This document shows, piece after piece, positions 4,520-63,999 of a DNA stretch of 64,000 nt. Positions within the stretch are counted from its first letter, which is position 1. The number at the start of each line of letters is the position of its first letter. A model generated the notes under the pieces. It searched no databases. It was not told where the DNA came from and saw nothing but the letters and a program-made list of their open reading frames with translations. The stretch is from Croceicoccus sp. YJ47 (GTDB lineage Bacteria; Pseudomonadota; Alphaproteobacteria; Sphingomonadales; Sphingomonadaceae), in the NCBI RefSeq assembly GCF_016745095.1, contig NZ_CP067087.1, positions 2,964,501 to 3,028,500 on the forward strand, in the 5' to 3' direction. The position numbers were made by a program, and so were the translations under genes.

Positions 4520-4567
4520 AGACGGGCGAATACGACGCGTCGCGCCCATCCCGGTATGCATTTTCAA

Positions 4568-4596: not shown

Positions 4597-4603
4597 ATCC
4601 GCC

Positions 4604-44265: not shown

Positions 44266-44922
44266 TTAGAAACGCCATTGTCGAAGGACCTCTTGGACAT
44301 ATCCGGGCGTCTCGCCATTCCGGGGAATGCCGCCTGCGCGTTCCACTGCGCCGGGACCCGCATTGTAGGCAGCCACCGCGAGGTGAACCACGCCGAACCT
44401 GTCGAGCATCTGCCGCAGATACCGCGCCGCGCCGAAGATGTTGGCCATAGGATCGAAGCGATTGAAGACCCCGAGTTCTTTTGCCGTGGCTGGCATCAGC
44501 TGTCCAAGACCTGCGGCACCCGCCGGGCTGACGGCGAAGGGGTTATATCGAGATTCTGTCCATACGAGCGCATCGAGCAGGCCCGCGGGCAATGAGTACT
44601 TCGCTTCCGCAGCATAGATGTGGGGAAGGTAGCTTGCTCGCCTGAAGTCGGAGGGGCCAGGTTTGGCCTTGGGTTCGTATCTGTATGGCAGGTTCACCCG
44701 GCCATTTTGTGGTACAATGAGACCCGATGCCGGGCCGGCCTGACGGGATGACCACAGCCCGTGCTCGACCAGCTGGAAGCCGTTCGATGTTTCAGCAATT
44801 CGGATGCCTTCGGAGTGACTCGCGGGGGCTTCGATTGTGGCTGGCGCGGACAAATCCTGGGCTCTGGCGGAGGTAGCAGAGGTGATCGCGAAGCCTGCGA
44901 CCAAGATAGCTTTCATTGTCAT
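44266..44922 (-). CDS. lytic transglycosylase
   Basis: A 218-residue exported protein with signal peptide AILVAGFAITSATSARAQ. The SLT domain (about 95-210) has catalytic E in LVWTESRYNPFAVSPAGAAG, then GLGQLMPATAKELGV and AAYNAGPGAVERAGG. It cleaves peptidoglycan, as VirB1-type proteins do for conjugation machinery; here it lies beside the integrase. Start MTMK or the second M. Confidence 0.88.
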   Translation of the reverse strand: MTMKAILVAGFAITSATSARAQDLSAPATIEAPASHSEGIRIAETSNGFQLVEHGLWSSRQAGPASGLIVPQNGRVNLPYRYEPKAKPGPSDFRRASYLPHIYAAEAKYSLPAGLLDALVWTESRYNPFAVSPAGAAGLGQLMPATAKELGVFNRFDPMANIFGAARYLRQMLDRFGVVHLAVAAYNAGPGAVERAGGIPRNGETPGYVQEVLRQWRF

Positions 44923-45046
44923 TTCTCGATCCTTCTATAGCCGAATCGAGTGAGAACATATATAGAACAGGCGGCGTAGGAAATTGGTTTGGCGCGAGTG
45001 CAGAGTGGAGGCTGCACGGGGAGGGCACCTCAACCGGAGAAGGTCG

Positions 45047-45943: not shown

Positions 45944-46018
45944 TCAGCGAGCCAGAGGGGAGGGGGCCTTCGGCTGATTGAGGCCTGCGAGGCGCAGGAC
46001 CTCGTCAGGAGGTTTCCC

Positions 46019-49000
46019 ATGTCCAACACTTCCCTCGCCTTCGCATTCGATCCACCATCTCCGCCGCTTGTCGTGACGGCAGCCAAAGCAATGGCGTTGC
46101 AATTGGCAGCAGGCAGCGCGCTTTCGCGCGGCGAAATCAACCGCATCATGACGGACCACTTCGGCGGAACCGATGCACTCGGGGCATGGTCAGTCCGTGA
46201 TGCTCACGCTGCGCTCGAGCTGGCGCAGGTTCAACATCTGCAAGCATCAGATCAAGTCCAGCCCACGAGCCCGATCGACGAGGCGGAACAGTTCTTCTGC
46301 GGTCTCGATGCCCGAGTTCCGACCCAAACCAATCGCAGCGACGAGCAGATCGAATGGCAGCAGTTTGCAACGCCGCCGCGGTTGGCCTGGCTTGCCGCAC
46401 GGGCCTGCGGACTGATGCTCAACGAGCTCGTGCTCGAGCCCTCGGCCGGAACGGGGATGCTTGCGGTCTGGGCCACCAAAGCCGGAGCCCGCCTAGTCCT
46501 GAACGAAATTTCACCGCTGCGCCGCGACTGCCTGACTGCGGTATTCCCGGATGCCCGCGTGACTGGACATGATGCCGAGCTGATCGACGAATTGCTCGAT
46601 CCGGCCATCAGCCCCAGCGTCGTGCTGATGAACCCGCCCTATTCTCACGGGATCGAGCGGGGCCACGATGGCCGCACTGGGGCGAGGCATCTGCGATCGG
46701 CCTGGAACCGTCTGGCGTCCGGGGGGCGGCTTGTCGCGATCATGCCTGAATGGTTCGACTGCGTGCGGTTTTTGGCCGGGGCGAAAGGGCCAGTTTCGCT
46801 GAGGCTCAATGCCGCCGTCGAACGCGCGTTCGTCAGGCAGGGCACCGGCATTACCACGCGGCTGTTGGTCTTCGACAAGGTGGAAGACTCCAATGAGCCT
46901 GTCGCCATCCGCACAAACGACTTTCGCCAGCTGGTCGATCTTGTCGATGCTTTGCCGGCTCGCGCCAGCCTTGAGGCTGCGCGCGAGAAATCCAGCGTTC
47001 CGGCTCGTTCGCCGTTCCTTTTGGTCGCCGCACCGCGCAGGCAGCTGCCGATACCAACCAGGATCACGCCTCCAGCCTCCGCCATCGGGTCGCTCACCTA
47101 CCAGTCGCTCGAAACCCCTGCGCGGCTTGCCCCTCAGGTTGGCCACTATCTGCCCTATCGCCCGAGCAGGATCGTGATCCATGGCGCGGCCGAGCATCCG
47201 ACGCCGCTCGTCGAATCTGTTGCCATGGGGTCGATCGCCGCACCGATGCCCGAAGCGGTGCCGCAGCTGCCTGACGGGCTTATCGCCAAAGGACTGCTTT
47301 CGGCCGCCCAGGCAGAGACCTTGATCTATGCTGCAAGTGCCCATGGGCGCGATTTGCCTGGCCGGTTCGAGCCCGAGGACAAGGGCTGTTCGCTCGAGGC
47401 CTCGGCGGAAGGTCAGATATACCGACAGGGCTACTTCCTTGGGGACGGCACCGGCGCTGGTAAAGGACGCCAGGTCGCGAGCGTCATTCTCGATCGCTGG
47501 GTGCGCGGCGAGCGCCGCCATATCTGGATTTCGAAGAACGAGGCGCTGCTCGAAGACGCGCGCCGCGACTGGGCGGCCCTTGGCGGTTTGCCGATCGACA
47601 TCCAGCCGCTGGCGTCCTGGAAGCTGGGTACCCCCATCGCAATGCGGGACGGCATTCTCTTCGTGACCTACTCGACCCTGCGGTCAGGTCGAACCGATGC
47701 GACCCGCCTCGCCCAGATCTTCGCCTGGGCGGGTGACGATTTCGACGGCGTGATCGTGTTCGACGAAGCGCACGCCATGGCCAACGCTGCCGGCGGTGAA
47801 GGATCGCGGGGCAAGGTCAAGGGATCGGAGCAAGGCATTGCGGGGGTACGTCTGCAGAACCTCCTGCCCCGGGCGCGCGTGCTCTATGCCTCTGCAACCG
47901 GTGCGTCCGACGTCAACAATCTGGCCTATGCGACGCGCCTCGGGCTCTGGGGTCCGGAGACCGCCTTCGCCAATCGCGAGGCCTTCGTTGCCGACATTCG
48001 CGATGGCGGCATCGCCGCAATGGAGCTGGTCGCGCGGGACCTCAAATCGCTCGGCCTCTACACCGCGCGTGCGCTCTCCTTTGCAGGCGTCGAATATGAA
48101 ATCCTCGAGCATTGCCTGACCGAGGATCAGATCGCAGTCTATGACGCTTATGCTGATGCCTGGGCGATCATCCACGCCAACCTGCGCGACGCGCTGGAAG
48201 CCACGCGGATCGTCGACAGCGAGACCGGGGGCACGCTCAACTCCGGTGCCAAGTCCGCAGCGCTGTCGATCTTCGAGGGAACCAAGCAGCGCTTCTTCGC
48301 GCAGCTGCTTCTGTCGATGAAGCTCCCCAGCTTGCTGCCCGCGATCGATACGGCGATCGCCGATGGGCATGCCGTTGTCGTGCAACTCGTCTCGACGGCA
48401 GAGGCCATGCTCGACCGGCGACTTGCCGACCTGTCTGACGAGGAACGCGAAGCTCTCGAGATCGACCTCTCCCCGCGGGAATACGTGATCGACTATCTCG
48501 CCAAGAGCTTTCCTGTCCGCCTGATGGCGGTGTTCACCGACGAAAACGGCAATCCTCGCTCCGAGCCGATGAGCAACGAGCATGGTGCACCTGTACTCTG
48601 CCGCTCCGCGCTCGCCGCGCGCGAGCGGATGATCGAGCAGCTCTGCGCCTTGCCGCCGATCGCTACCGCGCTTGATGCCATCATCGAACGCTTCGGCCTT
48701 GACCAGGTGGCGGAAGTCACCGGCCGCACGCGCCGGCTGATCGTCGGACGCGATGGTCGTCAGAAGCTGCAGTCCCGTTCGCCACGCGCCAATGTGGCCG
48801 AAACTCAGGCGTTCATGGACGGCGCCAAGCGTATCCTGGTGTTCTCCGATGCCGGTGGAACCGGGCGCAGCTACCATGCCGATCTGGCCGCGAAGAACCA
48901 GGCCCGCCGCGTCCACTTCCTGCTCGAGCCGGGCTGGCGGGCTGACGCCGCAATTCAGGGGCTCGGGCGGACCAATCGCACCAATCAGGCGTCGGCGCCG

Positions 49001-50260
49001 CTGTTCAGACCGGTGACCACCGATGTGCGCGGCGAGCGCCGCTTCATCTCAACGATCGCCCGGCGCCTCGACAGCCTCGGCGCTCTGACCCGCGGGCAGC
49101 GCCAAACCGGCGGGCAGAACCTGTTCGATCCGGCCGACAATCTCGAAAGCATCTACGCCAAGGAAGCACTCCATCGCTGGTTCGGCCTGTTGTTTACCAG
49201 CAAGCTCGAAGCGGTAAGCCTCGGGCGCTTTCAGGAACTGACGGGCCTGCGGATCGAAGCTCCCGACGGCTCAATGGTCGACGACCTGCCGTCGATCCAG
49301 CGGTGGCTCAATCGCATCCTGGCGCTTCCTATCGCCCTGCAGAACGCGATCTTTGACGAGTTCATGGGGCTGGTCGAAGCGCGCATCGATGCCGCGCGGC
49401 AGGCCGGTACACTCGATCTCGGCCTGGAGACGATCGCAGTCGAGGAGTTCACGATCCTGTCGGACATGTTGCTGCGCACCGATCCGGCATCGGGCGCGAC
49501 CACCCATCTGCTGGAACTGGAAATCGCCAGAGCCTTGAAGCCGCTCACGCTGAAGCGGCTAGAAGAGCTTCACGGCCTAACCGGGCAACGGCAGCGGCCG
49601 GTTCGAAACGCCCGCTCTGGTCGGGTCGCCCTACTTGTGCCCACCCGCAGTATTCTTGCCGATGACGGTACGCGCGTGGCCCGCTTCGAATTGCTGCGTC
49701 CCCTCAAGCGCAGCCACATCACCGAAGATCAGCTGGCGGAGAGCAGCTGGGAGGATGTCTCCCTCGACGATTTTCAAAATTCCTGGGTGACCGAGGTCGA
49801 AGAAGCCCGTTCTAGCCACAAACGCGAGCGCCTCTATCTTGCGACGGGCCTCCTGCTTCCGGTCTGGGACAAGCTCCCTTCGGATTTCGTGAGGGTGAGC
49901 CGCATCTCGGCAGCAGACGGCCGTTCGCTCCTCGGCCGCGAGGTTCCCGCCCATTGTGTGCCCGAACTGTGCCGAGCGCTGGGTCTGGAACGCGAGCAAA
50001 CTCTTTCCGCCGACGACATTGTCCAGACCGTCCTGGCAACGGGCAGGGCCATGGAGTTCGCGGGCCGCGAGCTGCTCATGGTCAAGCGCAGCCTGGTCAA
50101 TGGCTCACAGCGACTTGAACTCACGGGATGGAGTGCTGCTCGGCTCGACTGGTACAAGGCCCAAGGCTGCTTTACCGAGATCATTCGCTATCAGACGCGG
50201 CTCTTCGTACCGATCGAGGGCGCGGCGCGCGTGATTGCTAGACTGGCATCATCGGCATAG
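46019..50260 (+). CDS. strawberry-notch-like helicase with N-terminal methyltransferase domain
   Basis: A 1,413-residue protein, common on sphingomonad plasmids and islands. Residues about 120-300 have methyltransferase motifs (VLEPSAGTGMLAVWATKAGA and MNPPYSHGIE). From about 470 comes a strawberry-notch/superfamily 2 ATPase: GDGTGAGKGRQVASVIL, VIVFDEAHAMAN, and the helicase C-part DAGGTGRSYHADL, AIQGLGRTNRTNQASA. It probably modifies or remodels DNA during transfer or defends it. AGGAGG precedes the ATG. No cognate nuclease is adjacent. Confidence 0.8.
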   Translation: MSNTSLAFAFDPPSPPLVVTAAKAMALQLAAGSALSRGEINRIMTDHFGGTDALGAWSVRDAHAALELAQVQHLQASDQVQPTSPIDEAEQFFCGLDARVPTQTNRSDEQIEWQQFATPPRLAWLAARACGLMLNELVLEPSAGTGMLAVWATKAGARLVLNEISPLRRDCLTAVFPDARVTGHDAELIDELLDPAISPSVVLMNPPYSHGIERGHDGRTGARHLRSAWNRLASGGRLVAIMPEWFDCVRFLAGAKGPVSLRLNAAVERAFVRQGTGITTRLLVFDKVEDSNEPVAIRTNDFRQLVDLVDALPARASLEAAREKSSVPARSPFLLVAAPRRQLPIPTRITPPASAIGSLTYQSLETPARLAPQVGHYLPYRPSRIVIHGAAEHPTPLVESVAMGSIAAPMPEAVPQLPDGLIAKGLLSAAQAETLIYAASAHGRDLPGRFEPEDKGCSLEASAEGQIYRQGYFLGDGTGAGKGRQVASVILDRWVRGERRHIWISKNEALLEDARRDWAALGGLPIDIQPLASWKLGTPIAMRDGILFVTYSTLRSGRTDATRLAQIFAWAGDDFDGVIVFDEAHAMANAAGGEGSRGKVKGSEQGIAGVRLQNLLPRARVLYASATGASDVNNLAYATRLGLWGPETAFANREAFVADIRDGGIAAMELVARDLKSLGLYTARALSFAGVEYEILEHCLTEDQIAVYDAYADAWAIIHANLRDALEATRIVDSETGGTLNSGAKSAALSIFEGTKQRFFAQLLLSMKLPSLLPAIDTAIADGHAVVVQLVSTAEAMLDRRLADLSDEEREALEIDLSPREYVIDYLAKSFPVRLMAVFTDENGNPRSEPMSNEHGAPVLCRSALAARERMIEQLCALPPIATALDAIIERFGLDQVAEVTGRTRRLIVGRDGRQKLQSRSPRANVAETQAFMDGAKRILVFSDAGGTGRSYHADLAAKNQARRVHFLLEPGWRADAAIQGLGRTNRTNQASAPLFRPVTTDVRGERRFISTIARRLDSLGALTRGQRQTGGQNLFDPADNLESIYAKEALHRWFGLLFTSKLEAVSLGRFQELTGLRIEAPDGSMVDDLPSIQRWLNRILALPIALQNAIFDEFMGLVEARIDAARQAGTLDLGLETIAVEEFTILSDMLLRTDPASGATTHLLELEIARALKPLTLKRLEELHGLTGQRQRPVRNARSGRVALLVPTRSILADDGTRVARFELLRPLKRSHITEDQLAESSWEDVSLDDFQNSWVTEVEEARSSHKRERLYLATGLLLPVWDKLPSDFVRVSRISAADGRSLLGREVPAHCVPELCRALGLEREQTLSADDIVQTVLATGRAMEFAGRELLMVKRSLVNGSQRLELTGWSAARLDWYKAQGCFTEIIRYQTRLFVPIEGAARVIARLASSA

Positions 50261-50313
50261 TTCCTTGCCAAATGGCATTATTCACCGTATATGATGCCAT
50301 ATGGAGAACTGCC

Positions 50314-50727
50314 ATGCTGGCTCTGCAACCCGTTGATACTGCTGTTACCGCCTTCCGGCCCGATCCGATTACCCAGGACGAGGCAGCTGCCATGCTCCGG
50401 GCAGTCATCAATCTGTTCGGCAAGTGGGAGTTGACCGACGAGCAGGCGGCAACTTTGCTCGACATGCCTGTTCGATCCTATCGGCGCTGGAAGGCGGAAG
50501 GCCCCGGGCGGGTTTCGCGCGATGGGCGTGCGCGCCTCTCCAACCTGATGGGCATCCACAAGGCGCTTCGGATCATCTTCTCGGAGGCAACTCGTGGCTA
50601 TTTCTGGATCAGGTCGGCCAACGATGCCTTTGGCGGATCCAGTGCGCTCGAAGTCATGCTCGGGGGCGAGCTCACCGATATTATGCGGGTGCGTCGCTAC
50701 CTCGACGCCGAGCGTGGTGGCTGGTGA
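50314..50727 (+). CDS. Xre/MbcA-type antitoxin
   Basis: A 137-residue protein. The middle (WELTDEQAATLLDMPVRSYR) is a helix-turn-helix, and the C-terminal 50 residues (FGGSSALEVMLGGELTDIMR) match the DUF2384 toxin-binding domain. It should neutralise and autoregulate the RES toxin next door. The start at MLALQP is preferred; an ATG at 50272 gives 14 extra residues. Overlaps the toxin by four bases. Confidence 0.85.
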   Translation: MLALQPVDTAVTAFRPDPITQDEAAAMLRAVINLFGKWELTDEQAATLLDMPVRSYRRWKAEGPGRVSRDGRARLSNLMGIHKALRIIFSEATRGYFWIRSANDAFGGSSALEVMLGGELTDIMRVRRYLDAERGGW

Positions 50728-51458
50728 ACGGAACGGCGGATATCCCCGTTTCTAGAGTTGAGTGGAAGGGCGCTGTTCGGATCATCCGGAGTGCCTTTCC
50801 GCCGATTGATCTGTTCGAGGACATCGCCGATCCAGCCGACTGGCCGCTGCTGATTTCGGCCGAGCAGAAGACCAATCCTCGCATCATGGCGACGATTGGC
50901 AATCTCGACCTGGTGCCGGTCAACCGCCGCGTCGGTGGAAGCGGAGCCTCCTACCTCATGGCGCCCTTCACTCATGTCAGCACTGACCGGCCGAGCCGCT
51001 TTACCGATGGCAGCTACGGCGTTCTCTACGTCGGGGACCGGTTCGAGACCGCGCTGTTCGAGACGATCCACCACCATGCTCGCTTTATGGCACGGACAAA
51101 GGAAGCGCCTGGCTGGACCTCGCAATTCCGGGAGATCGTCATGTCGGTAGATGCAGACTTGCATGATCTCCGAGTTCCGGCGGCGGAGCCAGGTCCGGCG
51201 CTTGATCCCGACAGCTATGCCGCATCTCAAGCGCTCGCGATGCACCTTAAGGGAGCGGGATCGGACGGGATTGCCTACCCGAGCATCAGGCATCACGGAG
51301 GAGAATGCGTCGCGCTCTTCTACCCCGACTGCGCATCAGATCCCTTGCAGGGGCGTCATCTCGACTATCACTGGGATGGGGAGCGGGTTGATCTGGTCCG
51401 TGATGTCGGTTCAGGGTCTGTTTTCCGCGTCGTCGATTTGCCGCCCGATCCTGTCTGA
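50724..51458 (+). CDS. RES-domain toxin
   Basis: A 244-residue protein, GTG start coupled to the antitoxin stop (GTGA). RES domain: the block RFTDGSYGVLYVGDRFETAL provides the conserved R, Y and E; DLHDLRVPAAE and GIAYPSIRHHGGECVALF with S follow. Such toxins degrade NAD+ and arrest growth when the antitoxin is lost, stabilising the island or limiting phages. Confidence 0.87.
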   Translation: MNGTADIPVSRVEWKGAVRIIRSAFPPIDLFEDIADPADWPLLISAEQKTNPRIMATIGNLDLVPVNRRVGGSGASYLMAPFTHVSTDRPSRFTDGSYGVLYVGDRFETALFETIHHHARFMARTKEAPGWTSQFREIVMSVDADLHDLRVPAAEPGPALDPDSYAASQALAMHLKGAGSDGIAYPSIRHHGGECVALFYPDCASDPLQGRHLDYHWDGERVDLVRDVGSGSVFRVVDLPPDPV

Positions 51459-51523
51459 CCGCATGAGTTGGCCTTCCGGCCTAGTAACGTAGGATCTTCG
51501 AGCGCAGCTGGCCGCTAGAGCGT

Positions 51524-52036
51524 TCATGCCTGCGCCCCAGCCTTCACGAGTTCGTGAAGCGCTCTGTCTGGCGAAACCGGCCCCTTGTACAGCGGGCTAC
51601 ATGGTGTTTCCGCTAGCTTGGCGGAGATTGCCAAGAGGTCGTCATCATCGCCCTTTTCGTATGCATAGGCGGCCAACCAGAATTCGGCCTGCTTAACGAA
51701 CTCATTGAGGATGCCGACGACGCTCCGGTTCGCAGTCTTCGCGTACCGGACCTGGTCCATCCACCAGACTTCCTGAGCAATGAATTCAGATGAGACGCCG
51801 TGCTCCTTCAGGACCAGCGCCAATTGTGCGGGGAATCTTCGAGCAAGCGTGGCCGCTGGGGCCAGCGGCATAAGCACGGGAAGAAGCGTGCGCTCAGAAA
51901 CCAGCAAAGCTAATTGCGGCTTCCAGAACAGGGCGGTGGCGTACCAGTTGCCCAGCGCCGTGTCGCTTTGCCCAGGCACAGCGACTTCCGGTTTGATCCG
52001 ATCGAGTAGCTTCTTGGTGCAATGGAGGTGGAACAT
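51524..52036 (-). CDS. DUF6933-type protein
   Basis: A 170-residue protein starting MFHLHCTKKLLDRI, then GNWYATALFWKPQLALLVSE, then LPVLMPLAPAATLARRFPAQ and VRYAKTANRSVVGILNEF, matching the DUF6933 pattern. Function unknown; it sits on the opposite strand between the RES toxin pair and the CBASS operon. A longer frame starting at 52138 is possible but its first 34 residues look unrelated. Confidence 0.55.
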   Translation of the reverse strand: MFHLHCTKKLLDRIKPEVAVPGQSDTALGNWYATALFWKPQLALLVSERTLLPVLMPLAPAATLARRFPAQLALVLKEHGVSSEFIAQEVWWMDQVRYAKTANRSVVGILNEFVKQAEFWLAAYAYEKGDDDDLLAISAKLAETPCSPLYKGPVSPDRALHELVKAGAQA

Positions 52037-52259
52037 CAGAGCGGACGATAGTTTTCGGCGCTCAGTGAGTCCATCGACGCTAGTGGCCTTGCCATGGGGA
52101 TGGCAATCTCCGCGACCGTAGCGGTTGCTTAGCCACATTTTTTGGGTCGTGTGAAACCTTCCCGTCTTTCATTCGAACCTCCGCCCCCGTGCGTTCGCAG
52201 CGGACCGAGTAGGCAAGCGAGCTTATGGCATGGGTCAAGATCTCATCCGCCACTCCTGA

Positions 52260-53684
52260 TCACAAGAGCGCAGTTGGCTCATAGTGCCTTTCGCTCGTCA
52301 GATATTCGTGAAGCTGGGTGGGCGGCATCGCGTTCCAGCGGTGGCCAAGCGCGACGGCGAAGGCTGCGGGGCCGGCCAGATAGAGCCGTATTTGTCGTGC
52401 ACCGAGCCGCGCGACCGCCGCATCTACCGTCTGCTTGACTAGCGAAGCACTCGCCTGCGCCGCTCTCCCCGAGGCTATCGCCTCTGGTAAATGAAGGCCT
52501 AGCACCGAGTCCGCCGCAATTCCCGCTGAGGCCTCAAGGTCGGCAGACGGGTCGCGCAGTACCCCGACCGTGACGATGAGAGCGTCGCCTTCCAATCGAG
52601 AGGGCTGATGGATACGCCACGGTGGAGCAGGCTCGCCAGTCGTAGGGCGATCGTCAGTCGACCAGCTGCCAGCGCGTGTCTGGATTTCGAGCTCGAAACC
52701 ATGAGCGGACCGTAACGACCAGCCGACCGCTAACGCTGTGCTGAGCCGGTAGGAACCACTCAACGCGACTCTCGACATAGTATGTGCGCGCAGCCATCGC
52801 GCCGTGCGGTCAAGCGGACCAAGCAGCTGCTCGGCCCAGATGTCCGGGGGCGGGAAGCCGGCATCGCCGCCCGAGAACTGGCTCGCGTCCAATTCCAGCG
52901 CGGTCTCATCGGCTTCGTTGCGATCGGATCGGATGTGGAGCGCACAAGTTTGCCCGAGTGGAAGCGGCTTGCCCAACGTCTGCTCCATCGCTCTTCTTAG
53001 GTCTGAACGGCCTAGCGGGGTGCCAAGTGAACGGCGTGCGAGGGAGGATAGCACCTCGAACGCATCGGCAACTTTGCGGGACGGTGCTTCCAGTGCCGGG
53101 AAGGCCTGGTCGAGCGCGGCGCCGAAGGTGGCGAGCGCAGTGGCGGCGTCGGGCAGGCTGCGCTCACTCACTTCGACCGCGGACGCTACGAATTCACCGA
53201 GTTCCAGGCCATAAGTTTCGACAAGACTATCGCGTAGTGCCGCATCGCTCGCCGCCATGATGTCCGCGAAAGGCGCATAGAAGGGCCGTGCCCGGCGTAC
53301 GCGAAGCGGGTCCCGAGCGAGCCAAGCGAGTGTTGGCGGCAACCGCGGCGTGACCAACGCGTGGATGCGCGTCGCGTTGGGAAACCGCTCTTCGAAGCCG
53401 TGGAAGGTCTTGAGTACGTCGCGGACCTCGCCTGGCGAAAGCGCGCCGACCTTAGCCTGATAGCGTTCGAGCAGACGATGGCGGGGAGACTGGGGTGCGA
53501 AGAAGCGGGCTTCCAGATCTTCAAGTCCTTCGAAGATTATTTCCTCGAAGGCCGGGTTGGCGAGCCATGCGGGTAACCGCGCGAGGCCGTCCCAAAGCTG
53601 ATAGTCGAAACCGCCTTGGGCAATCACGCCCCCCATGCCGCGGGCATCGGTCAGGGCCGGCGCGGGAGGTTTATCAGACAACAT
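52260..53684 (-). CDS. cap4: CBASS effector: Cap4-type nuclease-SAVED
   Basis: A 474-residue effector. The N-terminal 120 residues have a PD-(D/E)xK-like nuclease pattern: FDYQLWDGLARLP, IIFEGLEDLEARF, then RYQAKVGALS with the Q-x-K. The C-terminal 200 residues are SAVED: GWSLRSAHGFELEI, ADLEASAGIAADSV, and IRLYLAGPAAFAVALGHRWN. SAVED binds the cyclic nucleotide made by the CD-NTase and switches on DNA cutting to kill infected cells. Last gene of the operon, overlapping cap3 by 11 bases. Confidence 0.85.
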   Translation of the reverse strand: MLSDKPPAPALTDARGMGGVIAQGGFDYQLWDGLARLPAWLANPAFEEIIFEGLEDLEARFFAPQSPRHRLLERYQAKVGALSPGEVRDVLKTFHGFEERFPNATRIHALVTPRLPPTLAWLARDPLRVRRARPFYAPFADIMAASDAALRDSLVETYGLELGEFVASAVEVSERSLPDAATALATFGAALDQAFPALEAPSRKVADAFEVLSSLARRSLGTPLGRSDLRRAMEQTLGKPLPLGQTCALHIRSDRNEADETALELDASQFSGGDAGFPPPDIWAEQLLGPLDRTARWLRAHTMSRVALSGSYRLSTALAVGWSLRSAHGFELEIQTRAGSWSTDDRPTTGEPAPPWRIHQPSRLEGDALIVTVGVLRDPSADLEASAGIAADSVLGLHLPEAIASGRAAQASASLVKQTVDAAVARLGARQIRLYLAGPAAFAVALGHRWNAMPPTQLHEYLTSERHYEPTALL

Positions 53685-54138
53685 CCATCTCCAGTTTGGC
53701 CTCGAACTCATTGCCCTGCGGATCAAACACCCAGCTGGCCGCCGAAAGTGTGCCGCCGTCAAGCCGAACGATCATTAGCACCGCGAAGCTGCCGGCGAAG
53801 CGGGCATCACCCACCAGCGCCCGCATCGTCGCGAGGTCTGTGCCGCTTGGATACACCGCGAAGCTCGGATGGCTGTGCCATTCGCCAATGTAATTGTAGC
53901 GTGTGTAGTGATGCTTGGTGCGATCGAAAAAGTGCATCGCATCGCGTGCGGCCTGCAGCAGATCGACCATAAAGCGCGCGAAGCTCCCGCGACGCGCCTG
54001 GATGGTGAGCTCGGTCACGTCGAAGTCGGACGGCGCAAGCTGCTCACCGAACAGCTGTCCGCCGATCTCGCGCTTGCCGGCCTTCTCCAGCGCCGCGACG
54101 AGCCTGGCGGTCTGATCAACCGGCAGCCTTAGCCGCAT
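53674..54138 (-). CDS. cap3: CBASS Cap3 JAB/JAMM protease
   Basis: A 154-residue isopeptidase. The JAMM zinc site is complete: E25 in KREIGGQLFG, H88 and H90 in GEWHSHPSFA, S98 and D101 in YPSGTD. In type II CBASS, Cap3 removes the CD-NTase from its conjugates, opposing Cap2. Start at MRLRLPVDQ; the 16 upstream residues are rejected. Overlaps cap2 by 23 bases. Confidence 0.88.
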   Translation of the reverse strand: MRLRLPVDQTARLVAALEKAGKREIGGQLFGEQLAPSDFDVTELTIQARRGSFARFMVDLLQAARDAMHFFDRTKHHYTRYNYIGEWHSHPSFAVYPSGTDLATMRALVGDARFAGSFAVLMIVRLDGGTLSAASWVFDPQGNEFEAKLEMDVV

Positions 54139-55805
54139 CGAGCCATTCCTTGAATAAATCGAGTGCGAAGGCCCGGGCCTCGGCATCCTCTCCGCTGGTG
54201 CCCGGACACCGTTCGCCGACGCTCAGCCGGATCGTGTGACCATGGCCGTCGAACAGCCAGTGCCTGCTGTAACCGAGAAGGAGCCAAGCGGAGTCCGACG
54301 GAGCGGGCGCTCCGTCGACTATGTCTAGGATGACGCGCGCCGCATGCCCGGCGGTCATGGTGACTGCGGCATCGTCCGCAACGATCGGCGCACCGTCGCC
54401 GGCGAGCATCTCGTAGCGCCGGGGACCGGGCTCTGGCGGGGCCACGCCTTGCTCATCACACCAGGCAAGAAAGGTCGCCCGCCCATCGACGAACGGCGGA
54501 TCTCGATCGGGCAGCGCCGTCGCCACAAGCGCGCCAAGCCCGCCCTCGAAGACCTCGACCGACACGAACGGGCGCTCGTTCGCGTCGGCAAGAGCACCGA
54601 GGAAGAGCGCAGTTGCCGGATCGCCGGTGGCGTCGACGATGACACTGCAGTCGGCAACGGCCTCGACCTGCCAAGCGTGTGATTTGGCCGAACGCTGCCA
54701 GTTGAGATTGTTGTCGACCACGCGGATGTCGGCGCCGGGCGCGATGGCAAGAAGGCGGCGCTTGAGGCCATTGACTTTGCGGAACCCTACGTCGCGCCAC
54801 TCGAGCGCGTGCCGCTCGAGATTGTCGGGGAGGAGTACGTCGCCGTCGATTAGCGTCAGGAGGCCGATGCCGGATCGGACCAGAGATTCGGCGAGCTTGG
54901 AACCGATGGAACCCGCGCCAACGATCGCGACGCGCTTGCACTCAGCCGCTGTCGATCTCGCGGACCGCGCACCGCTCTCGTCCGGAAGCACAAGAACCCG
55001 GCGACGGTGTGTGGCGCCATCCGCCATCAGGTGGAACCCGGCAATGTCCGCCTCGCCCGTGAAGAGAATGATGGCAGCGTTCGTTTCGAGGGCCAAGTTG
55101 GCCATGTCCGACTGCAGGTCGGCAGCTGCCACCAACGCGGCCCGATCTGGCACGCCTGCAGGCGCAGACCGGGTAGAGACAAATACCGGAATATCAAAGC
55201 GCCAGTTGTGGATGTCTGCGCTTGGCGGCCTACGAAGCAAGAGCCGGTCCTCGGCGTCATGGACGAGAATCGGCCAGACTTCGTCAGCCGCCATCCAGCG
55301 CAGTCCCACCAAGTCCAAGGCGATTCGCGCTTCGATCCGCCCGGCGCACCGTTGGCCGATCAGGACGGGATTGAGGCCCCAGTCATAGGCCTGGACCTGT
55401 CCAATCCGATGATCCGAAGGCGCGCGTTCGCCGCCTTCGCCCAGCGGGTCCTCGGTCACGAGCAAATTGTGTGCGCTACGTAGCACATCGGCCCCGGTCG
55501 CTTCTGCCGTCCAATTGTCCGGTCGCAGCTCAAGGCAGAGCACGCCCTTGCCATATTGATGAGTGGACCAGCGCGCCTCATCCTGCGGCTCGACCCAGGG
55601 TGGGACCTGCGGAAACTGGTCAGGATAGATCAGCCGGACCGGATAGCGCCGTGCCGTGGGCCGAGATGATGGCTTCGGCAGCGAACCGCGCGTCGTCGAA
55701 CTTCCATCGGGTGAACTCCAGCCAGTCCTCGTCGCGCGCCAGCGCTTCGACCACCGCGCGCTCGGCAGCGAGCCGGGCAGAGTCGGTGAGCCACCAGAAC
55801 CTCAA
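54116..55805 (-). pseudogene. cap2: CBASS Cap2 (E2-E1 fusion) with a broken frame
   Basis: Both halves of Cap2 are present in different frames. The first (TTG at 55805, RFWWLTDSARLAAERAVVEA, ending at TGA 55622-55620) is the E2 start. The second begins RRYPVRLIYPDQFPQVPPWV and holds the E2 cysteine in GVLCLELRPDNW, then the E1 part with VAIVGAGSIGSKLAESLV and DGDVLLPDNLERHAL. A +1 change at the CACGG-CACGG direct repeat (55649-55658) separates them. A downstream GTG (55543) would make an E1 protein without an intact E2. True inactivation, a sequence error or recoding are all possible. Confidence 0.75.
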
Positions 55806-56818
55806 GCGAAGCCGCGCGGCTTGGTAGGAGGCGCAGCCATCGCATTGGGGAAGGTGTATCCGGCGGCCACCGGTACCGCTGCGGCGAACCCGCCATAGGT
55901 CGAGGCCTTGGCCGGCGTCGCAGTGGCCTTGAAGCGATCGCCGAACACCCGGCGCCATTGCCGTGTTGCTTCCTCGATATCGTCGGCGTCCTGCGCCCGG
56001 CGGGCGATGCCAGCATAGACGCGAACCTTCTCGATGAATTCAGTCCACTGGGCGACCGACACCTTTCCCAAGATGTCGTTCGAGCCATCCGCGGGGTCGG
56101 CGATGAATGGCTTTTGGCCGATCGAGGCATGATAGCCATAGGCGTCGTAGATATTCTCAAGCAGTTGAGCGAATGCCTCGCCGTAATGCGTCTCGCCGGT
56201 GGGCGCGTGCAGCCCGACAAGCACTTCGAGGACGAAACCCTTGGGGCGCCGACCGGTTAGCGGGTTGATTCGACGCCACCATTTGAACAGCTTCACGAGC
56301 GGCTTGAACCGGCCACCGAACCGCGTGTTCTGCGCCGAACTCCAGCTGGTGTGGACCGGGGGATTGGTAAACTTCCAAGTGCCCGTGTCGCGGTCGGGGA
56401 TCATGTAGCCGTTCCATGTCGATGCGACCGGAACGATGTCCATCTCCGCCTGCCAGGTCTCGACCCGCACAGAGCGTTTATTGATTCGCTCGACCTCATA
56501 GCCGTCGCCGCCGTCTTCGAGGGCCTTACAGACCTCCTTCAGCACCGTGTCGGGATGGTCGTCGGTCGAAAAGTTCGTCACGATGATGATGTCGACATCG
56601 GGCCGCTCCTGACCATTCGACGTCGAGCGCGGGCGGATGGCAGAGTCGCGGGCATAGCTTCCTGAAAGGAAGCTGGTCACATATCGGTCCTTGAACTTCG
56701 CCTGCGTGCGCAGATGGTCGCGGATGCCGGTATGTCCGCCGGACGCCCGCGTTTTGGTTGTCGTGCTCGGCTCTATATCCTGCAGCAGTTCGATGAATCG
56801 TGTATTCGGAACGGGCAT
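55802..56818 (-). CDS. cdnT: CBASS CD-NTase
   Basis: A 338-residue cGAS/DncV-like nucleotidyltransferase. Nucleotide-binding G-S in FLSGSYARDSAIRP (51-64), catalytic D74 and D76 in RPDVDIIIV, and third D127 in AEMDIVPV. It should make a cyclic oligonucleotide on phage infection. The C-terminal tail is flexible and ends GFA, suited to Cap2 conjugation. Start at MPVPNTR; its stop overlaps the TTG of cap2. Confidence 0.88.
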   Translation of the reverse strand: MPVPNTRFIELLQDIEPSTTTKTRASGGHTGIRDHLRTQAKFKDRYVTSFLSGSYARDSAIRPRSTSNGQERPDVDIIIVTNFSTDDHPDTVLKEVCKALEDGGDGYEVERINKRSVRVETWQAEMDIVPVASTWNGYMIPDRDTGTWKFTNPPVHTSWSSAQNTRFGGRFKPLVKLFKWWRRINPLTGRRPKGFVLEVLVGLHAPTGETHYGEAFAQLLENIYDAYGYHASIGQKPFIADPADGSNDILGKVSVAQWTEFIEKVRVYAGIARRAQDADDIEEATRQWRRVFGDRFKATATPAKASTYGGFAAAVPVAAGYTFPNAMAAPPTKPRGFA

Positions 56819-57180
56819 GGATCCCCCCAAGGTGTTCCCTATTCGTTTCAATATGGGAGTGCTCCTTCGGTCGCGCAAGATGCACGGTTCAAACTTGGTG
56901 GAAAGCTGTGGTGCACAATGGGGTAGAAGTTGCGGCTCAAGATTCTGATTTGCGGCATCGCCCGACGGAGCAGTCGCGCATCGTCGAAATTAGGTCAGCT
57001 GAACGATTGGCGCGAAAAACATAAAATGCTCCACAGTCCGCAATCATGATCATTCGTCATTGCCCGCTGCCATCGGCAGGTTTGCTGCGAACGTATTAAG
57101 AGTGGAGTGGGCTTTGCCCTGATCGAGCCAGTTGGGCGTCGAAGGTCGATGCACAAGGCTCTCAGTCAGGAGTGTGTCCC
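56819..57180. other. divergent control region between CBASS and parB-like gene
   Basis: About 360 bases with no supported gene. It must hold the leftward promoter of the CBASS operon and the rightward promoter of the ParB-like gene. I see no palindrome long enough to call an operator or parS site. Confidence 0.35.
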
Positions 57181-59169
57181 ATGATCAAGTCGATCCCGCT
57201 GAACAAACTCGTCCAGTCTCCCCGCAATGTCCGTCGTCACAGCGATCCGGCGGCAGATGCCGAACTCAAAGCCAGCATTGCAGCGCATGGATTGCTGCAG
57301 AACCTGATCGTCCGCCCCGCTGCCAAGGGCAAATTCGAGGTCGAAGCTGGGGAGCGTCGTCGCCGCGCGATGCTTGCGCTCGCAGACGAAAAGATCTTCG
57401 CCCGCGATCATGAAGTCATGTGCTTGGTCGTCGACGACAGCGCCGAAGCCGCCGTCGAGACCAGCCTCGCCGAGAATTTCCACCGCCTCGCCATGAACCC
57501 AGCCGATGAAGCCCAAGCTTTTGCCGCGCTTGTCGCATGCGGCGCGACCGTCGAAGACGTTGCGCGCCGTTTCGGCCTGACGGTCCGCTTCGTCGAGGGC
57601 CGTCTGCGCCTCGCGACGCTTGCGCCCGTCGTGTTCGAGGCACTGGCGTCCGGGGAAATCACCCTCGACATTGCCAAGGCCTTTGGTGCGACTTCCGACC
57701 AGGAAATCCAGGCTTGCGTTTTTGAGCAGGTCTCCTCGGCCTACTACGCGCCCAATCCCGACAGCGTTAGGCGCATGGTCCTCTCCGGGACTGTCCGAGG
57801 CAGCGATCCGCGAGCACGGCTTATCGGCCGCGATGCCTACGTCGCTGCCGGCGGCCGGATCGAGCGCGAACTGTTCGATGACGACGACAGCGAATCCTGG
57901 GTCGATGTTGCGCTGCTCGAAGCCCTTGCCGCGGCAAAGATGGAAGAGCAGGCCAAAGCCCTCGCCGCCGAGCAGGGTCTTGCCTGGGTCAAGCCGACGC
58001 TCGATCCCTATGCCAGCCACGATCTGGTCGAAGGGCTAGTCCGGCTTCCGACCGAACCGGCGCCATTGACCGACGCAGAATTGGCGAGGCTCGACGAACT
58101 CGATGCCTCCTATGACGAGCACGCGGCGATCCTTGAAGACGAGGACAGTGCCGAGGATGCCGTGGCTGCAGCCGAAACGGCTATCGAGGCCATCGAACGC
58201 GAATGCCAGGAAATCCGTGCCCGACCGCCGGTTATCGCGCCGGAGCTCAAGGCCGAGGCGGGAATGGTGCTGGTGCTCTCCCGCGATGGCACGCCGGTTC
58301 TCCAGCCGGTGTTCTACGGCGAGCGTCAGGCTGAACCCGCCGAAGCCGACGACGGGATCGAAGTCGTTGCAGGCGAAGAAGGTTCGGACAGGCGCCGGAC
58401 CACCTTGTCGAAACGTCTGATCGACGAACTCGCGATGCAGCGCCGCGATGTTCTCGCACTTCACGTTGCATCTGATCCCGGGCTGGCGCTCGACATCATG
58501 GTCTTCACCCTCGCCGATGCCGATACCCACGACTGGCGGGCACGCCCTTCGACCACGCTGCGCGCGCCTGTTCCAGCAGGCCCGATCATCGGCTTCGAAG
58601 CCAAGGATGCGTCGGCGAGCAGCGCGCTTGCTGAGTTCAGATCCGGCCTCGACGAAAGCTGGCGTGCGGGCACCGATGCGACTGCCCGCTTTGACCTGTT
58701 TCGCGCGCTGCCTGATGACTGCCGCGCTGCCTGGCTGGGCTATGTCGTAGCCCGGTCGCTCGAGGCAAGCCTCAACATGACGGGCGAGCGTCAGCTGCCG
58801 TTCCAGGATCACCTTGGCAGCCTGATCGGCATCGACATGGCGCAGTGGTGGCGGCCGACCGCGGCCAACTACTTCGACCGCGTGTCGAAGCAGGTGATCC
58901 TCAATGCGCTGACAGATGTCGGCGGTCTCGAGCTCTCCTCGCGCTTCGCCTCGGTCAAGAAGGGTGACCTCGCGATGAGCGCCGAGCGCGTCTTTGCGGG
59001 CACCTACATCACCGAGGTCGAGGTTCGCGAAAAGGCCCTAGCCTGGGTGCCCGAGGTCATGCGCTTCGCTTGCCCTGCGGCGGATGCTGGCGAAGCAGAG
59101 ATCGACCCCGCTGGAGCGGAGCAGGGCGGTGACGACGAAGATGAGTCCCCCCGCGAGCTGGCCGCCTGA
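57181..59169 (+). CDS. ParB/Srx-family DNA-binding protein
   Basis: A 662-residue protein. The N-terminal ParB/sulfiredoxin nucleotide-binding domain shows IPLNKLVQSPRNVRRHSDPA, IAAHGLLQNLIVRP and VEAGERRRRAMLAL; the helix-turn-helix is VEDVARRFGLTVRFVEGRL. A long acidic C-terminal half is typical of the large ParB-like proteins on plasmids and integrative elements. Likely partition or regulatory role; no parA is adjacent. Confidence 0.82.
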   Translation: MIKSIPLNKLVQSPRNVRRHSDPAADAELKASIAAHGLLQNLIVRPAAKGKFEVEAGERRRRAMLALADEKIFARDHEVMCLVVDDSAEAAVETSLAENFHRLAMNPADEAQAFAALVACGATVEDVARRFGLTVRFVEGRLRLATLAPVVFEALASGEITLDIAKAFGATSDQEIQACVFEQVSSAYYAPNPDSVRRMVLSGTVRGSDPRARLIGRDAYVAAGGRIERELFDDDDSESWVDVALLEALAAAKMEEQAKALAAEQGLAWVKPTLDPYASHDLVEGLVRLPTEPAPLTDAELARLDELDASYDEHAAILEDEDSAEDAVAAAETAIEAIERECQEIRARPPVIAPELKAEAGMVLVLSRDGTPVLQPVFYGERQAEPAEADDGIEVVAGEEGSDRRRTTLSKRLIDELAMQRRDVLALHVASDPGLALDIMVFTLADADTHDWRARPSTTLRAPVPAGPIIGFEAKDASASSALAEFRSGLDESWRAGTDATARFDLFRALPDDCRAAWLGYVVARSLEASLNMTGERQLPFQDHLGSLIGIDMAQWWRPTAANYFDRVSKQVILNALTDVGGLELSSRFASVKKGDLAMSAERVFAGTYITEVEVREKALAWVPEVMRFACPAADAGEAEIDPAGAEQGGDDEDESPRELAA

Positions 59170-59336
59170 CCTCCTCCTGACAGGCACAGCCACTCGCACC
59201 TCGTGAAGCGGTCCTTCGGCTTATGCCGGAGGGCCGCTTCCTTTTTGGAAAGAGAGCGGAGGGGGCGCGGGAACCTGTGGCACTGACCGGCGAACCTGTC
59301 GCCAGCTGTCCGGATGCCTCAATCAGGAGAACTATC

Positions 59337-60065
59337 ATGGCCTATCGCAAGGGGCAGGGCGGCGGCCTGTCGCCCGCCACACGTATCACCCAGGAAATCA
59401 TCGCCCGTCTGGAAGCGGGCACGAAGCCGTGGATCAAGCCGTGGCGCGGTGTCCCGGTCTCCCGGCCCTTACGGGCCTGTGGGATCCCGTACCGCGGCAT
59501 GAACGTGTTCTGGCTCTGGATGGTCGCCGATATGTGCGGCTACGCATCGCCGTTCTGGATGACCTACAACCAGGCAAAATCGCTCGGAGCCCAGGTCCGC
59601 AAGGGCGAGAAGTCGACCATCGCGATCTTCTACAAGAGCTACACCAAGGAGGTCGAAGCCCCCGATACCGGCGAAAAGACCGATGAAGCCCGCAGGGTGC
59701 TGAAGGCCTATCCAGTCTTCAACGCCGATCAGGTCGACGGTCTGCCCGAGCGCTTCCGTCCGGCTGCAACGCTTGAGCTCGTCGAGCCTGAAGGACGCGA
59801 GGCCGAGCTCGACGCCTTCTTCGCCGCCATACCTGTCAATCTGCGCCACCAGGGCTGCGAGGCTTATTACGAACCGACTGCGGATCGTGTCACGATGCCG
59901 CCGACGAGCCTGTTTTCCGGCTTCGACCACTATTATGCCACGCTCGCCCATGAGGTATGTAACATCGCAAGTGTCCTCATTTCGAGGACAGTCGATGGCC
60001 TCCTCACTTTGGTTGCGCGGCACCATCGCAGGGCCTGCCTTGCGATGTCAGGACGGGAGTCCTGA
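59337..60065 (+). CDS. ArdC-type antirestriction protein, C-terminally truncated
   Basis: A 242-residue protein. The ArdC N-terminal ssDNA-binding domain is intact (TRITQEIIARLEAGTKPWIK, YNQAKSLGAQVRKGEKSTIA). The metalloprotease domain stops right after YYATLAHE: the H and E of HExxH are the last matching residues, and the following 31 codons belong to a palindromic insert. The zinc site is therefore incomplete. It may still bind DNA. An intact paralogue follows. Confidence 0.7.
   Translation: MAYRKGQGGGLSPATRITQEIIARLEAGTKPWIKPWRGVPVSRPLRACGIPYRGMNVFWLWMVADMCGYASPFWMTYNQAKSLGAQVRKGEKSTIAIFYKSYTKEVEAPDTGEKTDEARRVLKAYPVFNADQVDGLPERFRPAATLELVEPEGREAELDAFFAAIPVNLRHQGCEAYYEPTADRVTMPPTSLFSGFDHYYATLAHEVCNIASVLISRTVDGLLTLVARHHRRACLAMSGRES
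59962..60048. repeat. branched palindromic element truncating ArdC
   Basis: Outer 10-base perfect arms ACATCGCAAG (59962-59971) and CTTGCGATGT (60039-60048) enclose TGTCCTC-ATTTC-GAGGACA (59972-59990) and CGATGG/CCATCG. The whole 87-base unit would fold as a three-way junction. It lies where the ArdC active site should continue, so it is probably a mobile palindrome (REP/MITE-like) or a deletion scar. Confidence 0.55.
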
Positions 60066-60067
60066 TC

Positions 60068-60955
60068 ATGCGTAACTCCGAACGCACCGATATCTACACG
60101 CGCGTCACCAACGAGATCGTCGCAGCCATCGAGGCTGGCGCGGGCGAGTGGCGCATGCCCTGGCACCATGACGGTTCGGCCATCACGCGGCCGATCAACG
60201 CCGTGTCACGCAAGGCCTATAGAGGGGCCAACATCCTGTCTTTGTGGATTGCCGCTCAGGCCAACGGGTATACCTCGGGGCTCTGGGCAAGCTACCGGCA
60301 GTGGCAGTCGCTGGGTGCGCAAGTCCGCAAAGGTGAGCACGCAACTACGATCGTCTTCTGGAAGATTAGCCAGCGCGGCGAACAGACAGACGATCAGGAC
60401 GATTCAGGCGGCCATGTTCGCATGTTCGCGCGCGGATACAGCGTGTTCAACGAGGCCCAGGTGGAGGGCTACGTTGCGCCCGCGATTGCCGTCCTCTCTG
60501 AGGAAGAACGCGTCGCCCGTGCCGAGGAGTTCTTCGCCAACCTCGGCATCGCGACCATCCACGGCGGCAACGAAGCCTATTATTTGCCGTCGAAGGACCG
60601 GATCCATATGCCACCGTTTTCCCAGTTCAAGGATCAAGCCGCCTACTATGGCACGCTTTTCCACGAAGGACTCCACGCGACAGGAGCGCCCCATCGGTGC
60701 GACCGCGACTTGAGCGGGCGGTTCGGCTCTGACCGATACGCCATGGAGGAGGTTACGGCCGAGCTCGGGACCGCCCAACTGCTCGCCGAACTTGGCATCG
60801 CCCATCATCCCAGACCCGACCATGCCGCGTATATTGCCTCGTGGCTTAAGGTGCTCAAGGCCGATGCACGCGCCATATTCACTGTCGCAAGCAAGGCGCA
60901 GGCAGGCGTGGACTGGATGCATGGACAGCAACCGGATTTAGCTCAGGCAGCCTGA
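60068..60955 (+). CDS. ArdC-type antirestriction protein
   Basis: A 295-residue protein. ArdC N-domain (TDIYTRVTNEIVAAIEAGAG, WQSLGAQVRKGEHATTIVFW) then the zinc metalloprotease part with HEGLH (H199, E200, H203) and ATGAPHRCDRDLSGRFGSD, YAMEEVTAELGTAQLL. Complete, unlike the neighbour. Such proteins protect incoming DNA from restriction during conjugation. The Shine-Dalgarno GGGAG lies in the loop of hairpin AGGAC-GGGA-GTCCT (60050-60063). Confidence 0.85.
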   Translation: MRNSERTDIYTRVTNEIVAAIEAGAGEWRMPWHHDGSAITRPINAVSRKAYRGANILSLWIAAQANGYTSGLWASYRQWQSLGAQVRKGEHATTIVFWKISQRGEQTDDQDDSGGHVRMFARGYSVFNEAQVEGYVAPAIAVLSEEERVARAEEFFANLGIATIHGGNEAYYLPSKDRIHMPPFSQFKDQAAYYGTLFHEGLHATGAPHRCDRDLSGRFGSDRYAMEEVTAELGTAQLLAELGIAHHPRPDHAAYIASWLKVLKADARAIFTVASKAQAGVDWMHGQQPDLAQAA

Positions 60956-61155: not shown

Positions 61156-62529
61156 ATGAGAACCATGCTTTCCCGTTTCCGGTCCGAATGGTCCGTCAAT
61201 GCCGTCGAAGCGCGACACGACATCCTTGCCGGTATCGTCGTCGCACTTGCCCTCATCCCCGAGGCAATCGGCTTTTCCATCATTGCCGGGGTTGACCCCC
61301 GGGTCGGGCTCTACGCTTCCGTCGCGATCGCCATCATCATCTCGTTGCTGGGAGGGCGATCAGCCATGATCTCGGCAGCAACCGCGGCGGTGGCCGTCGT
61401 GGTCATTCCGCTGGTACGCGACCACGGGGTTGAGTATCTGTTCGCCGCCACGATCCTGATGGGGATTATACAGATCATTGCAGGAGTGCTTCGGCTTGAC
61501 CTCCTGATGCAGTTTGTGTCGCGTTCGGTCATTACCGGCTTCGTCAACGCGCTGGCGATCCTGATATTCATGGCCCAGCTACCTCAGCTGACCGACGTCA
61601 CTTGGCACACTTACGCAATGGTTGGCGCAGGACTTGCCATCATTTACCTCTTCCCTCGCGTTACTAATGCGGTTCCGTCTCCGCTCGTGGCGATCGTTGT
61701 TCTCGCCGTTGCCAGCATCAGCCTTGACCTCCCCGTTCGCACCGTCGGCGACATGGGACAATTGCCTGAAGGCCTCCCTTCTTTTGCGCTGCCCAACATT
61801 CCGCTTACGCTCGACACCCTGCGGATCATTGCACCCTATTCGTTCACTATGGCTGCGGTCGGCCTGCTCGAGTCGATGCTTACCGCACAGATCGTCGACG
61901 ACATGACCCACACTGACAGCAACAAGCAGCGTGAGTGCGTTGGTCAGGGCAGCGCCAACATCGCTGCCGCGCTGGTCGGCGGCATGGGCGGTTGCGCAAT
62001 GATCGGCCAGTCGGTGATCAACGTGACCTCGGGCGGGCGCAAGCGCTTGTCGACCTTCGTCGCAGGCGCATTCCTGCTGTTCCTACTGGTGGCGCTTGGA
62101 CCCGTTGTCGGGCAGATCCCGATGCCCGCGCTTGTCGCCGTCATGATCATGGTGTCGATTGGCACATTCAGTTGGAACTCGATCCCCAACCTGAGACGTC
62201 ATCCGCCGACGTCGTCGGTGGTCATGCTGGTAACCGTTGCTGTCGTCGTGCTGACCCACGATCTTGCGCAGGGTGTGCTGGCAGGTGTTTTGCTCTCGGG
62301 CATCTTTTTTACGGGCAAAGTCCGGAGCATGTTCGCGGTTAGGCGGATCATGGCCGATGACGGCGCGACTGTGGTCTATCAGGTTCGCGGCGAGATTTTC
62401 TTTGCTTCGGTAGACCGCTTTGTCCGCTCGTTCGAGGACGAGCAGGGGCGGTCGGTTACAATCGACGTAACACGCGCGCACTTCTGGGACAGGTCGTGTA
62501 AAAACGCGTTGGCAGACGAACGGCGCTGA
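61156..62529 (+). pseudogene. SulP-family anion transporter, truncated in STAS domain
   Basis: 457 codons. Ten or more membrane segments are seen, with the family motifs [20 protein letters not shown] and GLLESMLTAQIVDDMTHTDS. The cytoplasmic STAS domain starts (TVVYQVRGEIFFASVDRFVR) but breaks after SVTIDVTRAHFWD at about 62,490, followed by 13 foreign codons. The break coincides with the edge of the IS1182-type element. STAS is usually needed for folding or regulation, so it is probably inactive. Confidence 0.82.
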
Positions 62530-62562
62530 TTTTGGATTGGCGCGGAAGGTTTCCGTCCACCC

Positions 62563-63999
62563 TCAGGTCTGGATTGCGGCGATCATCGCCGGGACACCGA
62601 GGATGGCGACCAGCCTTTTGAAGTTATAGGCCAGGATGTGGAGACTGGCTTCCGTTCTGACGTGTTTTAGCGTCTTCATTTGGAAGTGGGTCGAGCCCAT
62701 CCAGGATTTCAGCGTGCCGAACGGATGCTCGACCGTCTGTCGGCGGATTCGCATCGCATCTGGCCTAAGATCGAGGCGACGCTCCATTGCCTCTACGACT
62801 GCCTCATGCTCCCATCGTCTGACCCGCCGTTCCTTGCCGGTCGTGCATTGGTCATGGAGCGCGCAACTCTGGCAGTTCGAGCTCCAGTAGCTATGCATCG
62901 TCAACCCGTCCTCGACCGAGGTGTAACGATAGATCAGATCTTCGCCGGCGGGGCATCGATAAACGTTTTCCTGCTCCAGGTAGACGAAGTCCGGTTTGCC
63001 GAAGCGGCCTTGTGCCTTTGACCCCGAGGTAAGCGGTCTGGGCACGAAGGCGGTGACGCCCATGCCCTCGCAGGTCCGGATATCCTCACCCTTGAAGTAA
63101 CCCTTGTCGGCAATGGCATCCAGAGCCTTCACGCCCATCGCATCCTTGGCTTTCGCCGCCATGGATGAGAGCTGTCCGCGATCATACCCAGTGTTCAAGA
63201 GCTCGTGCGCGACAATGAGGTGGTGCTCGGCATCGACGGCCGCTTGGAGATTGTAGCCGACGATGCTTGTGCCGCGGCCCGCGCTCGCCATGGCACGCGC
63301 GTCCGGATCGGTCAGCGACACCTGCTGGTCCGGTGCATTCCGGACTTCCTCTTCACGCGTTGCTAGGTCCCGCATCTGTGCACGCAACCGAGCGATCTTC
63401 TCCGTCAGTCGCTTTGCCTTCGGCTCGGCAATGTCGCTTTCTTCGCGGTCGGCACGATCAAGCGCGTCGAGATACCGGTCGATATTGTCCTGCACCTGCT
63501 TCATCCGCGAGGCGACTTTCGCTGCGGTGTAATTCTTGTCGCGGTTGTTAACCGCCTTCATCTTGCTGCCGTCGATCGCGACAACCGCGCGCGTAAACAG
63601 GCCCAATCGCCGGCACAGAACGATGAACTGGCTGCACACAGACTGGATCGCAGCGCTGTTTGCCTGGCGGAAGTTGGCGATCGTCTTGAAGTCGGGCGCC
63701 AATCGCCCCGTCAGCCACATCAACTCAATATTCCGCTGGGCTTCACGCTCGAGCCGCCGGCTCGACTGGACTCGGTTCAGATAGCCGTAGAGGTAAATCT
63801 TGAGCATCGTTGCAGGATGATAGGCGGGACGGCCCGTCTCAGCCGGCGTCATTCCGGCGAACTCCAGCGCCTTCAAATCGAGCGCATCAATGAAGGCCTC
63901 GATCGCCCGAACCGGGTTGTCTTCCGACACGTAATCATCGAGCGATGCTGGCAGCAAATAGTCCTGCCGACGGTCTTCCCCTTGGACGAAACGAGCCAT
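62563..63999 (-). mobile_element. IS1182-type transposase gene
   Basis: A complete 478-residue transposase. N-terminal helix-turn-helix region (AYHPATMLKIYLYGYLNR, SRRLEREAQRNIELMWLTG), then the catalytic core with D in VVAIDGSKMKAVNNRDKNY, D in NLQAAVDAEHHLIVAHEL, and the later DAIADKGYFKGEDI and HPFGTLKSWMG. CPAGEDL and CALHDQC are typical of the family. The insertion begins at about 62,491 inside sulP; the other end lies beyond the window. Confidence 0.9.

Follow-up and report, generated by a model that had tools for sequence, protein, structure and literature searches.

A frame break in the Cap2 gene of a type II CBASS operon in the Croceicoccus sp. YJ47 genome record: probably a consensus error

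Is the Cap2 gene of the CBASS operon in Croceicoccus sp. YJ47 really broken, or is it broken only in the genome record? In the window (the whole stretch of 64,000 nucleotides that was analysed), the two halves of this gene lie in different reading frames, and a short tandem repeat sits exactly at the frame change. The original prediction offered three readings for this: an operon switched by change of repeat number, a loss of conjugation, or an assembly error. We consider the Cap2 split a consensus (sequencing or assembly) error in the genome record, with a probability of roughly three in four.

Gene layout of the CBASS operon and the Cap2 frame break

The features at the locus are as follows.

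52260-56818, minus strand: type II CBASS operon of four genes (CD-NTase, Cap2, Cap3, Cap4), assigned with Pfam and PADLOC models and solved relatives
55802..56818, minus strand: CD-NTase, 338 aa, intact, C-terminus ...PRGFA (PF18144, E 3.5e-38; PDLC00773, E 1.8e-149)
55620..55805, minus strand: first part of Cap2 (61 aa), which opens the E2 domain and runs into a stop after the frame change (PDLC00855 positions 2-53)
55649..55658, minus strand: two tandem copies of a 5-base unit at the frame change, absent from the two nearest relatives
54116..55658, minus strand: remainder of Cap2 in the other frame, with the E2 end and its cysteine, a linker and the E1 (ThiF) domain (PF00899, E 2.3e-20; PDLC00855 positions 91-575)
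53674..54138, minus strand: Cap3, JAB-family peptidase, intact (PF14464, E 2.7e-11; PDLC00905, E 1.6e-58)
52260..53681, minus strand: Cap4-type effector (nuclease plus SAVED), intact (PF18145, E 4.3e-23; PDLC00748, full length, E 9e-275; 6vm5/6vm6)

The genes of the operon overlap end to start. A type II CBASS is expected to have a CD-NTase with an effector, and here they are a SMODS CD-NTase and a SAVED Cap4; the JAB peptidase Cap3 is also present. The CD-NTase ends in Ala, which agrees with the rule of a C-terminal Gly or Ala given in the available part of PMC10097602. A single protein carrying both the E1 and E2 domains of Cap2 was not found in the window, where they occupy two frames, and this is probably an error of the record.

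Cap2 starts with TTG at 55805, overlapping the CD-NTase stop, and the E2 fragment stops at 55620. In the other frame, which stays open as far as 54116, GTG at 55543 is the earliest start codon. Translations confirmed the original prediction that the E2 start (RFWWLTDSARLAAERAV) and the E2 end (RRYPVRLIYPDQFP to GVLCLEL) are in different minus-strand frames and that the switch falls on the tandem at 55649-55658; its frame arithmetic was also correct. The PADLOC E1-E2 model PDLC00855 matches both frames, at positions 2-53 upstream (E 1.4e-10) and 91-575 downstream (E 1.6e-126), and such a two-frame match of a conserved protein model around the switch is not chance. The search of this genome for Cap2 returned two matches; at E <= 1e-30 the Cap2 model gave one match only, so no complete spare copy in trans was found at that cut-off.

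Cap2 in relatives and frame breaks elsewhere in the assembly

The original prediction proposed an alignment with intact Cap2 of related strains. Cap2 was in one frame in all 11 relatives examined (loci L002-L005, L036-L041 and L047); the tandem was absent from the nearest two, which speaks against an inherited slippage site. The closest relatives were Novosphingobium sp. MD-1 (L002) and Sphingobium chungbukense (L003), with 98% and 97% protein identity in the downstream part of Cap2, and Cap2 was likewise in one frame in two Mesorhizobium loci. The search of 397 genomes of the family gave seven Cap2 matches including this genome, and that of 385 genomes of the class gave two, again including it; the six further family genomes and the one further class genome match the Cap2 model from position 2 to 576/577 without inner stop. 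Among the Cap2-like matches in 305 plasmid records, the frame was examined only for the Mesorhizobium amorphae plasmid (H1, the same locus as L005).

The four operon genes differ in length from the Novosphingobium and the Sphingobium records at the frame change and nowhere else. In DNA they share 98.6-99.4% identity with Novosphingobium MD-1, against 91% for the adjacent DUF6933 gene and 92% over the full collinear stretch (44297-59950), which suggests a recent exchange of the CBASS cassette between sphingomonads. Compared with the Sphingobium record there is a second split ORF besides Cap2, at the start of the DUF6933 gene, where that record differs from both the window and Novosphingobium.

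Some observations were also made on the neighbouring genes. The DUF6933 gene (51524-52138) adjoins the CBASS operon and matches the candidate defence family PDC-S63 (E 9e-12). At 59223-60955 there are two adjacent genes which we take to be ArdC-like; the match to both sphingomonad records breaks off within the first, at 59950-59953, and this gene looks truncated at a junction. Further on, at 61156-63999, an ORF that is presumably a SulP-like transporter stops shortly ahead of a transposase-like ORF (62563-63999), which may have cut it short.

As a control, stretches sampled from this genome (G000) were set against two genomes of the same genus, G009 (about 95-96% identical) and G002 (about 90-92%). 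A gene was counted when it was open in both other genomes and passed a filter on GC content at the third codon position. By this rule the genes split over frames were 10/137 in G000, 2/140 in G009 and 0/142 in G002 (Fisher p 4e-4, G000 against G009 and G002 pooled); a smaller run gave 8/83, 2/87 and 0/99. The rule was needed because long antisense ORFs in GC-rich DNA confounded the first reciprocal tests, which had no coding filter and showed no clear excess in G000 (in one run 15/129 G009 ORFs and 21/142 G000 ORFs were split). Genes with a stop (5 in G000, 4 in G009 and 6 in G002) were found in all three genomes, were taken as antisense or natural, and were left out of the splits.

Eight of the ten split genes in G000 were identified. 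Cytochrome c oxidase subunit I (CtaD), SURF1, HisB, lycopene cyclase (CrtY), a histidine kinase and an S24 peptidase are split, and in ArgH and RlmB the break lies wholly ahead of the region matching their family, which may reflect start-site differences; without these two the counts are 8/137 against 2/282 (p 0.003). In addition, at 1.2 Mb, G000 has splits in an AcrB-type pump gene and in the gene of its outer-membrane partner, both of which are whole in G002, G007 and G009. The split conserved genes were located at 380001-580000 of G000 (loci L048, L087-L091, L100 and L129-L131) and at locus L049.

Not every part of the assembly shows this. No gene was split in either direction in 340-380 kb (31/31 and 33/33 full) or in 2.02-2.10 Mb (10/10 full both ways, on only 7.7 kb of shared sequence), rpoB is whole, and the genome completeness score is 99.9%. 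A consensus error would be expected to come with excess frame breaks elsewhere in the assembly, and they were found in the sampled stretches, with none of 31 in one stretch. This excess over two genomes of the same genus in conserved genes makes the assembly error, the third reading of the original prediction, the best supported one.

Length changes were also counted directly. Those specific to G000 numbered 50 in 186 kb, 42 of them not divisible by three, and those specific to G009 numbered 12, with 8 not divisible by three. Of the 50, 18 fell in a poorly aligned patch at 509-511 kb, and dropping it left 32, with 27 not divisible by three; the comparison is thus 27/32 in G000 (trimmed) with 8/12 in G009 (untrimmed), and 27 against 8 gives p 0.002. 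These event counts are sensitive to the placement of the G002 pieces and to coverage (18 in 119 kb, 50 in 186 kb). The patch itself (G000:C1:509000-511000, L091) differs from both G009 and G002 by many large changes in length. Frame-changing events of G000 lay inside genes in 10/15 cases in the first set (sequence 85% coding, patch rows left out) and in 25/36 placed cases in the larger set (83% coding, patch rows included); for G009 it was 2/8. Genes in G000 are thus hit only a little less often than the rest of the sequence, which is an error-like pattern.

In the 15.6 kb collinear with Novosphingobium MD-1, Cap2 has the only uncompensated length difference inside a gene, and one more, at 44980, lies between ORFs; the window is thus not full of errors, which counts against the consensus-error reading. 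With 27 frame-changing events in 186 kb less the patch, or roughly one in 7 kb, about two would be expected in 15.6 kb, so this result is not surprising.

The events have a sequence context. CGGCCG or GCCGGC lay within 12 bases of 12/32 G000-specific events against 1.34 expected, and homopolymer runs were at 9/32 against 3.55 expected. The hexamers had been picked after the first 18 of the 32 events were seen; of the later 14 events, 4 were near the motif (p 0.002). In the control G009 2/12 events were near it against 0.40 expected (p 0.06), so a real tendency of such sites to gain or lose bases may account for some of the effect. The nearest relative, Novosphingobium MD-1, shares this context at the Cap2 site, carrying both hexamers; Sphingobium chungbukense has neither. 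When hexamers were scanned for changed sites, CGGCCG (15/49) and GCCGGC (20/69) ranked second and third among hexamers with at least 25 sites, at an overall rate of 0.105, with 4/41 and 10/63 in G009; since these changes are mostly substitutions, the scan gives mild support only.

The restriction enzyme family of NgoMIV, specific for GCCGGC, had no match in G000, G009 or G002; it had none in the control genomes either, so this result is uninformative. C5-methyltransferase matches were 3 in G000, 1 in G009 and 2 in G002. Within the window such a match lies at about 5211-5489, inside 3851-7287, a stretch which we take to be phage-like genes including a repressor-like ORF and a Dam-like methyltransferase ORF.

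Motif-linked read errors arising from DNA modification are described for nanopore assemblies in the accessible text of PMC10687267, and large numbers of false pseudogenes in nanopore or long-read bacterial assemblies in that of PMC8011154. Errors of this nanopore type may account for the breaks in the present record. From the excess of breaks, the one-frame relatives and the context shared with the nearest of them, we infer a read or consensus error as the cause at Cap2.

If so, the operon is probably a working type II CBASS whose Cap2 gene has, in the cell, an ordinary single frame. The E1 and E2 domains of Cap2 would conjugate the CD-NTase, through its C-terminal Gly or Ala, to target proteins, Cap3 would reverse this conjugation, and the cyclic nucleotide made by the CD-NTase would activate the effector, here the Cap4 nuclease. 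Other broken genes from this genome record deserve the same doubt and should be taken as biology only with reads in hand.

Less likely readings: loss of conjugation, repeat-number switching and programmed frameshifting

A genuine, recent single frame-breaking mutation is unlikely but the next best explanation. Cap2 would then be a pseudogene without a complete E2, the CD-NTase would not be conjugated and the operon would be impaired, possibly further by polarity on cap3 and cap4, as the genes overlap. The three other operon genes are intact and, with their 98.6-99.4% identity to Novosphingobium MD-1, look as expected soon after one event. According to the seen portion of PMC10097602, Cap2 must have both E1 and E2 activity for conjugation to occur and for some, not all, phages to be resisted, and in the B. 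cereus system joint deletion of cap2 and cap3 abolished immunity, as stated in the part of PMC11153139 at hand. However, the like breaks in hisB, ctaD, crtY and SURF1 in the same assembly make the Cap2 break unremarkable as a consensus error. The substitutions peculiar to the window after the break, four non-synonymous and four synonymous, are too few to judge decay of the operon. The loss of conjugation named in the original prediction is possible if the letters are right, as the cell would then lack a complete E2 and hence the conjugation step, but an assembly error is favoured over it.

It is quite improbable that the recently exchanged cassette lost E2-dependent conjugation in this host, keeps its cyclase, peptidase and nuclease, and still answers some phages. 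The conjugation might have been lost perhaps because full priming is costly in the host. A terminal Gly or Ala on the CD-NTase accompanies operons with full Cap2 and Cap3 (PMC10097602, as far as its text was available); since the present CD-NTase has kept its terminal Ala, a loss, if any, would be recent.

The short tandem at the frame change invites a story of phase variation, in which change in the number of pentamer repeats toggles Cap2 on and off. The two-copy tandem lies exactly at the switch and one more copy would be frame-compatible. The 10-base tandem occurs once in the 64-kb window, at 55649; head-to-tail pairs of 5-mers in general are common, with 117 in 64 kb against 94 +/- 10 expected from 30 first-order Markov sequences, an excess of 2.3 standard deviations and about one pair per 550 bases. 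The tandem was not found in Novosphingobium MD-1 or Sphingobium chungbukense, the two nearest relatives, so it is not an inherited slippage or hypermutable tract; the repeat therefore arose together with the length difference. Two repeat units are also short for a contingency locus, where an unusual, shared and copy-variable tract is expected; here there are two copies of a kind common by chance and absent from both relatives. A slippage repeat was ruled out on these two grounds, and the idea that the operon is switched by repeat number found no support; we regard it as very improbable. The near-identical relatives and the control within the same genome point to a consensus error.

Programmed ribosomal or transcriptional frameshifting, by which a full Cap2 would be made from two frames, is even less credible: the downstream frame is indeed intact to the end of Cap2, but a single frame is used in the 11 relatives examined and the frame change is kept in none of them, and the tandem has no homopolymer run of at least four bases and no stop codon. 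Phase variation and programmed frameshifting both have little support. In the available portions of the literature on CBASS Cap2, on phase variation of defence systems and on type II CBASS with Cap4 or CdnD, we found no report of a Cap2 frame switch.

Comparison with known systems

The operon is like the CdnD-Cap2-Cap3-Cap4 type II CBASS of Bacillus cereus (PDB 9sa4/9sa5; PMC13424991, seen in part), which has the same four genes. The solved chains nearest to the CD-NTase are 9sa4 (E 1.4e-70) and 9sa5 (E 7.1e-70) of the B. cereus enzyme, and PDB 7to3 and 6vm6 are also among the closest known type II CBASS entries. Cap4 matches 6vm5 with E 5e-23, and the E1 domain of the Novosphingobium MD-1 Cap2 matches solved Cap2 chains with E 2e-13 and weaker. 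A terminal Ala, as on this CD-NTase, is often found where an operon has both Cap2 and Cap3 in full, by the excerpted text of PMC10097602. Unlike the known CdnD-Cap2-Cap3-Cap4 systems, Cap2 is in two frames in this record.

The present record differs from the published nanopore cases in that we infer the cause of the breaks. It resembles the false pseudogenes (PMC8011154) and the motif-linked errors (PMC10687267), as described in the parts of these papers available, in having frame breaks in conserved genes with a homopolymer and motif context.
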